Positions 7,020 to 24,917 of a stretch of 64,000 bases of DNA are shown one piece after another. Source of the stretch: an uncultured Pelagibacteraceae bacterium (GTDB lineage Bacteria > Pseudomonadota > Alphaproteobacteria > Pelagibacterales > Pelagibacteraceae); the NCBI GenBank assembly GCA_902559635.1, contig CACEIY010000001.1, positions 1 to 64,000 of the forward strand, written 5' to 3'. The translations under genes were made by a program, and so were the position numbers. The notes under the pieces were generated by a model that saw only the letters and a list, made by a program, of their open reading frames with translations, did not search any database and was not told the origin of the DNA. Within the stretch, counting starts at the first letter, position 1, and each line of letters starts with the position of its first letter.

Positions 7020-7940
7020 TTATGCTATAGATCTTAGCAAAGATCTATTAATAAGTGTGTGCGGTAAATTTCTTTCTTGAATTTCGATTACAGAGAAGTT
7101 TTCTTTGTTTTCAAAAACTTTTTTCATTAACTGATTAGTAAGATAATGACCACCTTGAGAACATTTTATACTCGCTATCATCCTATAGCCACAAGTATAA
7201 AGATCTCCAATACAATCTAAAATTTTATGATTTACAAATTCTTTTGAATTTCTTAAACCACCTTCATTTAATATTTCATTATCTTTTACTACTATTGCAT
7301 TATCTAAACTTCCACCTTTAGCTAATCCATTTTTTTTTATAACTTCTATATCTTCAAAAAGACAGAAAGTTCTAGAATTAAAAACATCATCTAGATCATC
7401 TTCATAAACATTTATTTTATTTTTTTGATTTCCAATAATGGAATTTTTATATTTCAATTCAAAATCAATATCTAAACTTAACTTTGTAGGTTCAATTGAA
7501 ATAAACCTGTCACTTTTTTCGACTTTAACTTTTTTATTAATCTTGATTATTTTAATTGGTTTATTACTCATAGAAAAACCTGAAACTAAAATTTTTTTAA
7601 TAAAATCATGAGCAGATCCATCTAAAATTGGCACTTCTTCATTATCAATTTCGATAATAGCATTGTCTATTCCCAACCCAAACAAAGCACCCATTAAATG
7701 TTCAATAGTAGAAACTTTAACTCCATGTTCATTAGAAATTGTAGTGTTTAATGAAGTATTACTAACATTGCTAAAATTTGGATAAACTAAATTGTTTATT
7801 TTTAAATCTACTCTTTTAAAAACTATTCCTGTATCTGGTTCAGAACTTTTAATACAAAGATTAACTATTTTTCCATTATGTAAGCCTACACCTTTAAATT
7901 TTACATCATTTTTTATAGTTTTTTGATTGAGTAAAGACAT
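7020..7940 (-). CDS. lpxC: UDP-3-O-acyl-N-acetylglucosamine deacetylase
   Basis: Q(K)TI...GVGLHNG, STIEHLMGALFGLGIDNA, PILDGSA, NHKILDCIGDL, GH(Y) motifs. Confidence 0.96.
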   Translation of the reverse strand: MSLLNQKTIKNDVKFKGVGLHNGKIVNLCIKSSEPDTGIVFKRVDLKINNLVYPNFSNVSNTSLNTTISNEHGVKVSTIEHLMGALFGLGIDNAIIEIDNEEVPILDGSAHDFIKKILVSGFSMSNKPIKIIKINKKVKVEKSDRFISIEPTKLSLDIDFELKYKNSIIGNQKNKINVYEDDLDDVFNSRTFCLFEDIEVIKKNGLAKGGSLDNAIVVKDNEILNEGGLRNSKEFVNHKILDCIGDLYTCGYRMIASIKCSQGGHYLTNQLMKKVFENKENFSVIEIQERNLPHTLINRSLLRSIA

Positions 7941-8004: not shown

Positions 8005-8706
8005 TTAATTAAAAAAACTAAAAAACTTCTCAAAAAAGCTTATATTTTTGGTATTTTTATTTGAAAAGAAAATTTCATTTTGATTCAAGCCATTTAAAAC
8101 TTTATGAGCAATAATTAAATTTTTTCTATCACTAAAATCTTCAAATTCTTTTAAGTATGCAAAGCAAATAATATTTCTAACCATTATTTGATATTTGGAC
8201 AAAATATCTTTCAAGTTTTGAACTATACTTTTATTTAAACAAATAAATTTTACTTCTAAACAAATTTTGTCATAATTATTAATTTCAATTAACTGTGAAT
8301 AACTTTTTCCATCAACTATAAATTTATTTATAACCATGTGTGTTACTTCAAAATTTCCTATGGTATTTTTAAACTGACTCTTTAATTCAACTAATAAACT
8401 ATTTAATCTATTTAGATTAAATTTCATTCCGTCAAAAGAATATTTCATTGATAAATTCACAAATAAAAAATCGTTATGATCAATAACTAAGTGAATATCC
8501 TTAACATAGTTATTTAAATTTTTTTCAATATCAAAAATATGATTTTTTAAAAATTGATCTAACAGATCAAAGTTTTCATTAGTTGATGAGTCGTCAATTA
8601 AATTTTTTTTTGAGAAATAAATTTCATTATTTGTATCAATTGCTTCAAATTTAATATTGTTTGGTCCTATAAATAAAAAAAATTTATAATCTTTTAATTT
8701 AATCAT
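8005..8706 (-). CDS. ftsA: Truncated FtsA-like cell division protein (SHS2/1C-containing, second ATPase lobe absent)
   Basis: Position immediately after ftsQ in the dcw cluster; segment VKDIHLVIDHNDFLFVNLS...EVTHMVINKFIVDGKSYSQL...LEVKFICLNKSIVQNLKDILSKYQIMVRNIICFAYLKEF aligns by eye with FtsA 1A/1C; C-terminal ISFFEKFFSFFN amphipathic helix. Confidence 0.65.
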   Translation of the reverse strand: MIKLKDYKFFLFIGPNNIKFEAIDTNNEIYFSKKNLIDDSSTNENFDLLDQFLKNHIFDIEKNLNNYVKDIHLVIDHNDFLFVNLSMKYSFDGMKFNLNRLNSLLVELKSQFKNTIGNFEVTHMVINKFIVDGKSYSQLIEINNYDKICLEVKFICLNKSIVQNLKDILSKYQIMVRNIICFAYLKEFEDFSDRKNLIIAHKVLNGLNQNEIFFSNKNTKNISFFEKFFSFFN

Positions 8707-9370
8707 TTAAAATAACTTGATCAGTTTGTCTTAAATCTATTATTTTTTTATTTTTAAATTCTTCATAAATTATAATTTTAGATAAATTATTCAAAGATTT
8801 TTCTATTTGATTTAAAGGTAACTTAATAATCAATCCATCTTTGGTTTCAATGTCCCACCTTTTAGATTTAAAAAAATACAAATTCTTAATTTGATCAAAA
8901 TTAAACTCTGAATCATTTATATAAGTCTTTAACTTTAAAAAATCATCAGGTTCTACATTACCAAAAATAAAAGGTAAACTTTCTACTGAATTTTTTGTTA
9001 AAATTAAGTTTCCATTAGATCCTATATAATAATTCTGATTATTCTTCTTAGTGATAGCTAAAAAATTTGTTTTTTTAATAAATATTTTTAATTCCGAAGG
9101 ATAATTTTTAAATACAGACAATTCTTCAACTGTTTTATTTGCAAAAATTTTTTTTGAAATTTCAGTTTTATCTAAAAATATAAGACTTTCTTTTTTTAAA
9201 AAATTAAAATCTTTTTCAAATTTTTTTTTTTCAAGATTGTTTAATCCTGAAACATTCAAAGTAATTATTTTTAAAAAGTTTAAGTTTAATAAATTTATAT
9301 TATTTACTGTTACCAATATTAAAAAGAGAAATAAGTAAATTATAATCTTTTTACTTATTTGTTGATGCAT
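8699..9370 (-). CDS. ftsQ: Cell division protein FtsQ
   Basis: N-terminal TM, POTRA-like VSGLNNLEKK..., downstream of ddl, 'RWDIETKDGLIIKLP' motif typical of FtsQ. Confidence 0.85.
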   Translation of the reverse strand: MHQQISKKIIIYLFLFLILVTVNNINLLNLNFLKIITLNVSGLNNLEKKKFEKDFNFLKKESLIFLDKTEISKKIFANKTVEELSVFKNYPSELKIFIKKTNFLAITKKNNQNYYIGSNGNLILTKNSVESLPFIFGNVEPDDFLKLKTYINDSEFNFDQIKNLYFFKSKRWDIETKDGLIIKLPLNQIEKSLNNLSKIIIYEEFKNKKIIDLRQTDQVILND

Positions 9371-17097: not shown

Positions 17098-19941
17098 TTA
17101 ATTTAACCCTTTCAATTGATTTACTATCTTATTAAAACCTGTCGCATTTGAGGCCTTAATCATTAAATAATCATTATTATTTAAATCATTTCTAATCATT
17201 TCAATAATTTGAGATTTATTATTTAAAATTCTACCCTTTTTAAGTTTAGAAACTTTGTTAAATATAAAAGAAGCTTTATTTCCTTTAACAAACACTTTAT
17301 CGATTTTAGTTCGATTAATTACAGGTACAATAGATTCATGTAATTTTTTAGAGTGATTGCCAAGATCCAACATATCTCCGATTAAAAGATATTTTTTTGA
17401 TTTATTACAGTCAATTTTATCATAATTAAGTATTGCTGATTTAAGTGATAAAGGATTCGAATTATAACTTTCATCAATTAAATTTAGATTTTTATTAAAA
17501 ATTTTTATTTTGGAAATATCTCCTCTTCCTTGAGGTGTTTTAAAATTTAAAAATATATTTTTATTTAAATCTAAAATGTTTATATAAATACTCATTACAG
17601 CTAAAGATGCTAAAATATTATAAATATTTGTTTGAAAATTATTAGAAACTAAGAAACAACTAGTAATTTTATTTACTTTTATATTTAGTTTAAATTTTTT
17701 ACTTTTTTTATTAATACTAATTAATTTTATATTTGCTTTTTGATTTTTAATACCAAATGAAACTACTTGAAGATTCCTCATATGAGCTAAGTTTTTATGA
17801 AATTTAAAAAAATTATCATCTGCGTTTAAAACAACATAACCATTTTTTCTGGTATTGTTAATAATCTCTGATTTAGCTAAAGCTATTTGAGTTATATCTT
17901 TAAAATTTTTAATATGAGCATAATTAATATTTGTTATAACGCTCACATCTGGTTTTATAATTTTTGATAAAAAATCTATTTCACCTTTTTTGTCCATACC
18001 TACTTCCAAAACTCCATAATCATCATTCTGATTTAAATTAAAAAGACTTAGAGGAACACCATATTTATTATTATATGATTTTGGAGAAATACTAACCTTT
18101 GAAATTTTTCTTAATGTTTTTCCTAATAATTCTTTAAGAGTAGTTTTTCCACAACTTCCAGTTATCGCAATTATTTTTGTATTTATATTTTTTCTAAAAA
18201 TTTTAGAAATATCTGTTAAAAATTTTAATGAATTTTTAACTTTTATTTGATTTTTGATTTTTGATTTTGTTTGAATTCTATTTACAACGGCCAAAGATGC
18301 TCTTTTTTTAAATGATTGGACCACAAATTTATTTCCATCATTTTTTTTTCCTTTTATTGCAAAAAAAATGTCATTTTTTCTAACTTTTTTAGAACTAATT
18401 CTTGCCTGACTTAAAGATAAAGTGGATGATAGCTGTTTATAACCAGACAACTCTTTAATTATATTTAATTTCAAATTATTTGATAAATCTAAATTCTTAA
18501 CTTTAATTTCATCTAGAATAATTTTTTTGTCGGAAAAATATATTTTTCGTTTACCTATATCTTGAGTTTTTTCATGTCCTTTACCAGCAATTAATAAAAT
18601 TTCACCAACAAGTATATTTTTAATAGCATCTTTTATTGCTTTTGCTCTATTAGATATTTCAATAACTTTTTGTTTCTTTATCCCTTTTTTTATATCTTTT
18701 CTAATCTTGTTGGGTCTTTCAAATCTTGGATTATCATCTGTGAGATATATTTTATCAGAAAAATTATCAGCTATTTTTCCCATTTTTGCTCTTTTGTTTT
18801 GATCTCTGTTTCCACCACATCCAAACAATAAAGAAATTTTGTTATTTGGAAATTGCTCTCTTAAATTTAAAAGACATGTTTTTAGAGCTTCAGGAGTATG
18901 TGCATAATCAAGTATTACTTTAGATTTATTTTTCAATTTACCAATTTTTTGAAATCTTCCCTCCACTGATTTAATTTTTGGAATCGTTTTTAATATTTTA
19001 TCTATTTTTATATTGCTTTGATTGGCAGCCAAGATAGCCATAAATATATTCTTTAATTGGATTTTTCCTATTAACTTGAGATTTATATCTTTTATAGAGT
19101 TATTATATTTTATTTTAAGTATTTGTGACTCTCCTTTAAAAGTGTGTGATAAAATATTAAAATTATTTTTTTTATTATTAAGTGTATGCAGCTTTAAGCT
19201 TTTATTTAAGGCAATTTTTTTAATTTTTTTAAATTCAGGTATTTCTTCATCAGTAATAATATTTCCTTTTTTTTTAATTAAAGTTTTAAATAAATAAAGT
19301 TTTGCTTTTAAATAATTGTTTAAATTTTTATGAAAGTCTAAATGATCTTGAGATAAATTTGTAAATATTCCTGAATTAAATAATAATCCATCTAATCTGT
19401 TTTGTTTAAGACCATGACTTGATGCTTCCATAATAACATTATTAATATTTTTGTTTTTTAATTTTTTTAAGATTTGACTTAATTTTATAGGGTCAATCGT
19501 AGTATTAGATAAATTAAAATTAATATTCTTTGATTTAACTCCCAAAGTTCCAATTGAAGCAACTTTTTTATTATTTAATCTTAATATTTGATAATAGAAA
19601 TCTGCAATTGAAGATTTACCATTTGTTCCTGTAACTGCGATTAAATTATTAGGCCTTTTATAAAAAATCTTATAAGAAATTTCTGCTAATAATTTTCTAA
19701 TATTTTTTGTATGAATAAACAATATTCCATTTTGAAATTTATTATATTTTCTTTCAGTGACTATAATATTTGAACCTTTTTTAATCGCAATTGGTATAAA
19801 ATTATTACCATCAAAATTAGTTCCTTTGATTGCAAAAAAAATATAATTTTTTTTTATTTGTTTGCTATCAAATGAGATTCCTGAAAAAAAAAATTTTTTA
19901 TACTTTTTATCTATATTTTGAAAGTAATCCCCTAAAAACAT
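17098..19941 (-). CDS. murE-murF: MurE-MurF fusion (UDP-MurNAc-tripeptide ligase + UDP-MurNAc-pentapeptide ligase)
   Basis: Single 947-aa ORF with two complete Mur ligase modules: MurE half (AVTGTNGKSS, DDNPRFE mDAP motif, AGKGHE) then MurF half (AITGSCGKTTLKELLG, EVGMDKKGEI, DESYNSNPLSLKSA, GDMLDLG). Confidence 0.95.
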   Translation of the reverse strand: MFLGDYFQNIDKKYKKFFFSGISFDSKQIKKNYIFFAIKGTNFDGNNFIPIAIKKGSNIIVTERKYNKFQNGILFIHTKNIRKLLAEISYKIFYKRPNNLIAVTGTNGKSSIADFYYQILRLNNKKVASIGTLGVKSKNINFNLSNTTIDPIKLSQILKKLKNKNINNVIMEASSHGLKQNRLDGLLFNSGIFTNLSQDHLDFHKNLNNYLKAKLYLFKTLIKKKGNIITDEEIPEFKKIKKIALNKSLKLHTLNNKKNNFNILSHTFKGESQILKIKYNNSIKDINLKLIGKIQLKNIFMAILAANQSNIKIDKILKTIPKIKSVEGRFQKIGKLKNKSKVILDYAHTPEALKTCLLNLREQFPNNKISLLFGCGGNRDQNKRAKMGKIADNFSDKIYLTDDNPRFERPNKIRKDIKKGIKKQKVIEISNRAKAIKDAIKNILVGEILLIAGKGHEKTQDIGKRKIYFSDKKIILDEIKVKNLDLSNNLKLNIIKELSGYKQLSSTLSLSQARISSKKVRKNDIFFAIKGKKNDGNKFVVQSFKKRASLAVVNRIQTKSKIKNQIKVKNSLKFLTDISKIFRKNINTKIIAITGSCGKTTLKELLGKTLRKISKVSISPKSYNNKYGVPLSLFNLNQNDDYGVLEVGMDKKGEIDFLSKIIKPDVSVITNINYAHIKNFKDITQIALAKSEIINNTRKNGYVVLNADDNFFKFHKNLAHMRNLQVVSFGIKNQKANIKLISINKKSKKFKLNIKVNKITSCFLVSNNFQTNIYNILASLAVMSIYINILDLNKNIFLNFKTPQGRGDISKIKIFNKNLNLIDESYNSNPLSLKSAILNYDKIDCNKSKKYLLIGDMLDLGNHSKKLHESIVPVINRTKIDKVFVKGNKASFIFNKVSKLKKGRILNNKSQIIEMIRNDLNNNDYLMIKASNATGFNKIVNQLKGLN

Positions 19942-22958: not shown

Positions 22959-24446
22959 TTAATTTTTTTGTCTTCTTAAAAATGCAGGTATTTCTAAATC
23001 ATCCTCATCTTCATGAACTTCATTTTCAGATGATAATAATTCATTAGAATTAGAAGATTCACTATCATTATTAAATAAATCTGGAGCTTGAGCATCTACT
23101 CCAAATTCACTTAAATCATTATTTGCTACTTCATCATTTTCTGATTGTTCGCTAGTCATAGTTGCTTCTTCTGTGAAAGATATCTCTTCATCTTTTGAGG
23201 TATTTTCTACTATACTTTCTGCTTCTTGATTTTTTAATAACTCCTCATGATATTGATTGTTAACTTGATTTATATCTTCATGAACAGTTTTTTGATTTAT
23301 ATTTTCTGAGACAAATTCATTTTCAAGTTTTAATGCATTAGCACCATGAGAGACTGGACTGGCACCATTGTTTGAAAAATTGAATGAGGGTGTAGGGCCT
23401 AAATTTGAAAAATCAGAATAACCTGGATTTCTATTTTGTATTCTATGAACCATATTTATAACTGACTTTGTCTCAGGTTGTTGACCATCTAATGATGTAG
23501 CGACTATAGAGACTCTTATATTGCCATCAAGAGATGGATCTGTTATTGCTCCAATTATTACTTCTGCATCAGCTTCAACTTCTGATCTTATTTTATTTAC
23601 CACTTCATCAACTTCAAATAATTTAAGATCCTTGCCGCCAGTAATATTTACCAACAAACCTTTAGCACCTTTTAAAGTGTAATCGTCTATTAAAGGATTG
23701 CTAATTGCCATTTCAGTAGCTTTCATGGCTCTTCCTTCTCCTTCGGCTTCTCCTGTTCCCATCATTGCTTTGCCCATAGATGCCATTACAGTTTCTACGT
23801 CGGCAAAATCAAGATTTATAATGCCAGGTCTAACCATCAAATCTGTTACGCTTTGGACTCCATGCATTAATACATTATTAGAAAGATTAAAAGACTCCTC
23901 AAAAGTAGTTTGCTCATTTGCAATCTTAAATAAGTTTTGATTTGGAATTACTATGATTGTATCAACATGTTTTCTTAGTTCTTCAAGACCAATCTGAGCT
24001 CTTTTCATTCTTGAAGGACCTTCATATAAAAATGGAAGTGTTACAACTCCGACAGTTAATATATTTAATTCTTTTGCTGCTCTTGCAATCACATGTGCTG
24101 CTCCAGTTCCTGTTCCACCACCCATTCCTGCAGCTATGAAAACCATATTTGCACCTTGCAAAACATTAATTATTTCATTTAAAGATTCATCAGCTGCAGC
24201 TTGACCAATGTCAATTTTTGCTCCTGCACCCAAACCTTTAGTCAAATTCAAACCAATTTGGATTTTTGATTTAGCTTTGCTATGCTTTAAATCTTGAGCA
24301 TCAGTATTTACCGCAATAAATTCAACTCCTTGCATTCCGTTATCTATCATCTCATTTATTGCATTGCCTCCAGCTCCACCCACGCCCATTACAAGAAGTC
24401 GTGGCTGTAACTCTTTTATTTCTGGTGTTTTAAAGTTAATTGTCAT
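22959..24446 (-). CDS. ftsZ: Cell division protein FtsZ
   Basis: [26 protein letters not shown] tubulin signature, NLDFADV; long acidic linker and [14 protein letters not shown]-terminal peptide. Confidence 0.98.
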
Positions 24447-24461
24447 TTTTTTCCCCTCTCA

Positions 24462-24917
24462 TTATTTGTTTAGTTGATGCTCCCATTTAAGACTTGCGCG
24501 ATTTAAATTTGATTTTTTTCTTGCACTGACCTTAAATTTTTCAAATATTGCTGGTTCCCATATCTGAAATGTTTTTCCTTGACCAACAAATACCATGCTA
24601 TTTTTAATCTTTGCATGTTTTAATAATCTTGGCGTAAGAGAAATTCTCCCCTCACTATCAAATTGTAAATTAATACTTTCAGACAATATTGATGTAGCAA
24701 AAAAATCTCTCTTTTCTTCAAAAGGATTGAGAGAGTCTATTGTATTTGAAATTTTTTCTATCCTATCTTGTGGCCATGCTTCTATTGATTGATTGTTAAA
24801 TGACGGATAACAAATAACACCATTGTATCCTAAATTAGATAAATAAGACCTAAAGCTTGCAGGCACTGACACCCTTCCTTTTTTGTCTAATTTGTTTTCG
24901 TAGGTTGATAAAAACAT
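24462..24917 (-). CDS. mraZ: Transcriptional regulator MraZ
   Basis: N-terminal LDKKGRVSVPASFR SpoVT-AbrB motif, second DSEGRISLTPRL repeat, head of dcw cluster. Confidence 0.93.
   Translation of the reverse strand: MFLSTYENKLDKKGRVSVPASFRSYLSNLGYNGVICYPSFNNQSIEAWPQDRIEKISNTIDSLNPFEEKRDFFATSILSESINLQFDSEGRISLTPRLLKHAKIKNSMVFVGQGKTFQIWEPAIFEKFKVSARKKSNLNRASLKWEHQLNK

Follow-up and report, generated by a model that had tools for sequence, protein, structure and literature searches.

The window (the whole 64,000-nucleotide stretch of Pelagibacteraceae DNA that was analyzed) carries in its ftsA position an open reading frame of 233 aa that, judged from sequence profiles and structure prediction, is an FtsA lacking exactly domain II (IIA and IIB). 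Domain IA including its last helix, domain IC (SHS2), and the amphipathic helix at the C-terminus are retained. We consider it likely that this is a functional FtsA cut down by clean excision of domain II, and that it would serve late divisome proteins as a nucleotide-free, membrane-bound IA-IC adaptor. In model bacteria it is difficult to tell apart the roles of FtsA as FtsZ tether, curvature-sensing actin filament, and activator of the late divisome, and SAR11 are among the most abundant bacteria in the ocean. Here nature has removed the ATPase, polymer, and FtsZ half of the protein and kept the other half under selection, and the occurrence of short and long FtsA within one genus provides a natural pair with which the essential functions of FtsA become directly testable. 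Among open-access journal articles on SAR11 FtsA and on truncated or domain-lacking FtsA, we found none that describes an FtsA without domain II.

The frame begins with ATG, has no internal stops, and is intact; its first 8 nt overlap the end of ftsQ. It occupies the ftsA slot of a SAR11-type dcw cluster between ftsQ and lpxC, a placement that the sequence-only reading had proposed and that synteny confirmed. The gene order is mraZ-ftsZ-mraW-ftsL-ftsI-murE/F-mraY-murD-ftsW-murG-murC-murB-ddl-ftsQ-[short ftsA]-lpxC, and the genes referred to below are as follows.

7020-7940, minus strand: lpxC, downstream neighbor (PF03331, E 2e-91)
8005-8706, minus strand: short (domain-II-excised) ftsA, 233 aa (slot, hhalign, AlphaFold2, Foldseek)
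8699-9370, minus strand: ftsQ, upstream neighbor (PF03799, E 4.7e-7; PF08478)
22959-24446, minus strand: ftsZ, displaced to mraZ-ftsZ-mraW
22962-23003, minus strand: FtsZ C-terminal peptide (14 aa), nearly invariant with either form of FtsA

The genome of the window (G000) has 927,583 bases in 58 contigs and is 77% complete. It contains one copy of FtsZ and had no match to the FtsA ATPase model PF14450 at E 0.001, the best match at a looser threshold being 0.016. Within the cluster, ftsZ lies at the start of dcw between mraZ and mraW (22959-24917) and not after ftsA, an order seen in nearly all loci of the family that extend that far upstream. A single 947-aa frame at 17098-19941 appears to be a fusion of murE and murF.

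A Pfam search with the window protein alone matched no model. SHS2_FTSA (PF02491) was matched by 17 of 47 short homologs, with a best E of 1.6e-6; PF14450 was matched by none of these 47 and by all 24 long homologs. The short-form profile aligned with the long SAR11 FtsA profile over residues 1-190 (hhalign, 99.9%, E 6e-31). Against the PDB it matched FtsA chains only (E 3.4e-4 to 0.016), with residues 47-189 on FtsA 54-194, and the long-form profile matched FtsA at E of about 1e-18 to 1e-16. The AlphaFold2 model of the 233-aa protein (pLDDT 85.2, pTM 0.80) had an IA-IC-IA topology, its elements running b-b-b-a-b (IA), b-a-b-b-b-a (IC), b-a (IA), a (last IA helix), linker, and a (membrane helix). 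Foldseek placed FtsA at ranks 1 to 19 against the PDB (E 3e-12 to 4e-9), followed by PilM and GspL, and the predicted model of a long SAR11 protein was a whole FtsA. A domain IA with an inserted SHS2/IC domain was found by profiles, PF02491, AlphaFold2, and Foldseek. The proposal from sequence that this is an FtsA with IC/SHS2 and the membrane helix and without 2A/2B, to be checked for a structural match to the FtsA SHS2 domain, was borne out by profile-profile alignment, both structural methods, synteny, and full-length FtsA in the same genus.

The kept and lost parts were mapped as follows.

8470-8706, minus strand: domain IA, first part, residues 1-79 (b1-b2-b3-a1-b4); DxG phosphate-1 motif lost, E61-K62 kept (AlphaFold2 secondary structure, column counts)
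8191-8469, minus strand: domain IC/SHS2, residues 80-172 (AlphaFold2; PF02491 in 17/47 homologs)
8131-8190, minus strand: domain IA return segment, residues 173-192 (AlphaFold2, hhalign)
8128-8148, minus strand: excision junction, about residues 187-193 (alignments, model comparison)
8095-8130, minus strand: last IA helix, residues 193-204, corresponding to long-form helix 329-341 (AlphaFold2 models, profile)
8008-8043, minus strand: C-terminal amphipathic membrane-targeting helix SFFEKFFSFFN, common to long FtsA (alignments, profile)

At the junction, some 140 aa of domain II are present in long FtsA, spanning roughly residues 189-328 of the G146 protein. The short-form profile matched the long ftsA of G146 twice, with profile positions 6-197 and 188-234, the two matches lying 393 nt apart. 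The last 45 or so residues of the short form aligned with the end of long FtsA (profile 188-234 on G146, G297, and G062; 182-233 on G194), and the linker and GFFEKFF helix at the C-terminus are common to both forms. The amphipathic helix, found in the sequence and predicted at residues 224-231, had a moment of 0.56, which 2.5% of shuffled sequences equaled or exceeded; such a sequence and amphipathicity suggest that short FtsA binds the membrane. The sequence-only reading had the protein jump directly to this helix. The helix is present, but the jump is not direct, as the last IA helix and a linker intervene.

No VDIGGGT-type or later ATPase motif is present, as had been noted from the sequence; domain II is absent, and the DxG of IA is also gone. 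The Asp column of DxG holds D in 35 and E in 5 of 40 long forms, and D in 0 of 62 short forms. The E-K pair of helix 1, a His in IC, and the Phe of the membrane helix are retained in short and long forms. None of the elements of an actin-type ATPase site (DxG, DIG/phosphate-2, GxG adenosine motif) was found, nor was domain IIB with its site for the FtsZ C-terminal peptide. Because domain II is missing and DxG is lost, we infer that short FtsA has lost canonical ATP binding and actin-like polymerization. In SAR11 relatives such as G146, long FtsA (370-401 aa) has the same slot, IA/IC profile, C-terminal linker, and amphipathic helix, whereas its domain II is complete, carrying DIG and GxGSK motifs, and its IA has DxG. 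Likewise, FtsA of E. coli, Vibrio, and Thermotoga (PDB 7q6d, 7q6i, 4a2a) shares the IA-IC fold, the region of the FtsN-binding cleft, and the membrane helix, but binds ATP, forms filaments, and binds FtsZ through IIB, all of which the short form lacks. Short FtsA is an FtsA by ancestry, and its mechanism is probably no longer that of an actin.

We compared 20-kb loci of 60 family genomes. The same synteny was found in about 60 family genomes, with a slot frame of either 220-245 aa or 370-416 aa (that of G012 being frameshifted). Among genomes of the order that were at least 90% complete, counted from the matches listed, the genus of the window had about 64 species with an intact short form (220-245 aa) and about 30 others with a long form (370-401 aa); in the other genera all matches were long, save for frames cut at contig edges. 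Variants of 222 aa occurred in one lineage. Six genomes of the genus without an ftsA match were also without lpxC, and therefore the ftsA locus falls in an assembly gap there; G228 and G321 ended at contig edges, and the long form of G189 was cut by one. A full-length FtsA elsewhere in a short-form genome had been named as evidence against a domain-excised FtsA, and PF14450 detected no second FtsA in the closed short-form genomes G123, G137, G155, and G183 or in closed G012 with its frameshifted short form. The other PF14450 matches in the closed short-form genomes were either MreB, confirmed at E about 1e-141, or frames of some 640-650 aa that were taken from their size to be DnaK, as was a 652-aa frame in G137. 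A separately encoded domain II or second FtsA was rejected in these genomes, the remaining matches being MreB and DnaK-size frames.

Some ftsA frames were broken. In closed G012 (L063:1260-1960), a frameshift in short ftsA adjoins a T8-A8 run, and in G371 (L144) short ftsA is frameshifted within or close to a homopolymer tract; either could be mutation, slippage, or sequencing error. In G010 (L065), one TAA beside an A-rich run divides long ftsA where IA/IC gives way to domain II, and the halves could be separate proteins.

Short FtsA is under purifying selection. The dN/dS was 0.12-0.32 in seven close short-form pairs, ftsQ being similar in the same pairs, and 0.15 between the window and the short ftsA of SAG-MED30. 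A decaying remnant of an ftsA no longer needed is very unlikely. The gene evolves fast, homopolymer-tract frameshifts occur in G012 and G371, and one lineage has 222-aa variants, all of which would fit decay; however, the dN/dS range speaks against it, a length of 220-245 aa has been maintained over deep divergence with both ends and the fold conserved, and the gene adjoins ftsQ in every genome. A deletion by assembly or sequencing, a concern raised by the 77% completeness and 58 contigs of G000 and one that the sequence-only reading had set against itself should sister genomes have full-length ftsA, has a negligible chance of being the explanation. Sister lineages do have full-length ftsA, yet dozens of genomes carry the short form, among them single-cell SAG-MED30 (84% identity), SAG-MED09, AG-390-K13, and AG-390-K22 and the four closed genomes, which refutes such a deletion. 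That the protein is a PilM- or GspL-like adaptor for a membrane machine outside division is exceedingly unlikely. PilM (2ych) and the cytoplasmic domain of GspL/EpsL (4pht) were the next fold matches after FtsA; they have FtsA-like folds with an IC-type domain and are adaptors for bitopic membrane proteins, and the cytoplasmic domain of GspL is, like short FtsA, a reduced actin-like fold. However, they belong to secretion or pilus systems, the best E-value was 4e-7 compared to 3e-12 for FtsA, some five orders of magnitude behind, and short ftsA always sits in the dcw ftsA slot, away from pilus or T2SS genes, and is orthologous to the FtsA of sister species.

On a species tree of 11-12 dcw proteins, in which G066, G295, and G009 were placed on under 30% of columns, a single short-form clade was rejected (AU p 1.8e-39), and the short and long states required at least 4 changes, counted on its starred branches. 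Four to five excisions are favored because the outgroups are long, an excised domain could not be restored in place, and at least 4 changes are needed. Excision of domain II has probably recurred across lineages, and it is possible that the short allele was transferred into some of them. A single origin of the short form with spread by recombination, in place of several excisions, seems doubtful, although it deserves some weight. In its favor, the junction position is the same in all lineages, and one short clade was not rejected in the ftsA gene tree of 229 common columns (p-AU 0.55). However, on the same 229 columns a tree joining the group-B short forms to the long clade was also not rejected (p-AU 0.56), the short forms of G202 and G066 resemble long forms of their own sister group (the fork having a support of only 76), and the species tree stands against one short clade (p-AU 2e-39) with its minimum of 4 changes. 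Returning to repeated excision, we give even odds to the broader proposal that the ATPase lobe of FtsA was excised repeatedly and independently in SAR11, that ATP binding, actin-like polymerization, and FtsZ tethering by FtsA are jointly dispensable, and that the conserved core of FtsA amounts to an IA-IC receptor, anchored in the membrane, for the machinery of cell-wall synthesis.

The FtsZ peptide site on FtsA is in IIB (PDB 4a2a), and FtsN is the best-known ligand of IC. In Vibrio FtsA, the FtsN tail is bound in the IA-IC cleft, and in the FtsA double filament lateral contacts are IC-IC while longitudinal contacts involve IIA/IIB (PMC7613929). We propose a late-divisome adaptor because the short form retains exactly the FtsN-binding cleft and the anchor. 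The excised stretch lies between two neighboring points of IA, and what remains (IA with its inserted IC domain, the final IA helix, and the membrane helix) would still make one compact, membrane-bound unit. Loss of IIA would remove the nucleotide site, loss of IIB the known FtsZ-peptide site, and loss of both, judging from known FtsA structures, the actin-type protofilament. Short FtsA would then be a monomeric or IC-to-IC dimeric membrane adaptor, its IA-IC cleft may hold a late divisome membrane protein by its cytoplasmic tail, and the FtsZ ring would be tethered by something else. By analogy with known FtsA, such partner binding and a role as late-divisome adaptor only, as suggested from the sequence, are reasonable to expect, and many SAR11 probably divide without an actin-like FtsA.

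Some observations count against the adaptor model. SPOR-type FtsN, the expected cleft ligand, was not detected in SAR11 genomes, within the limits of model sensitivity, and the FtsZ peptide is kept, which leaves room for FtsZ binding through another surface of short FtsA. We found no co-change of the peptide with the form of FtsA, and therefore its binding must fall to another receptor or to an unrecognized site on short FtsA. It is unlikely that short FtsA continues to tether FtsZ to the membrane by binding this peptide at a novel site in IA or IC. Conservation of the peptide whichever FtsA form is present and retention of the membrane helix would agree with a tether, as would the finding of no SepF or ZipA over the cut-off in 12 genomes, where a divergent SepF could escape a model that in the control gave weak matches beyond real SepF holders. 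However, the known site is in the missing IIB, and other peptide ligands could explain the conserved motif. The FtsX_ECD model left its own Caulobacter control unmatched.

SPOR matches were rejected as FtsN, those inspected being RlpA-like lipoproteins or chance matches. The best SAR11 SPOR matches (L166-L174) were RlpA-like lipoproteins adjoining a DacC-like gene. The disordered C-terminal linker of FtsZ (22959-24446) has a second conserved motif, possibly a binding site. It reads NDLKEFGVDxDxPDLF within the main clade of short FtsA and NGLENFxxxxxTPELF in most of the others.
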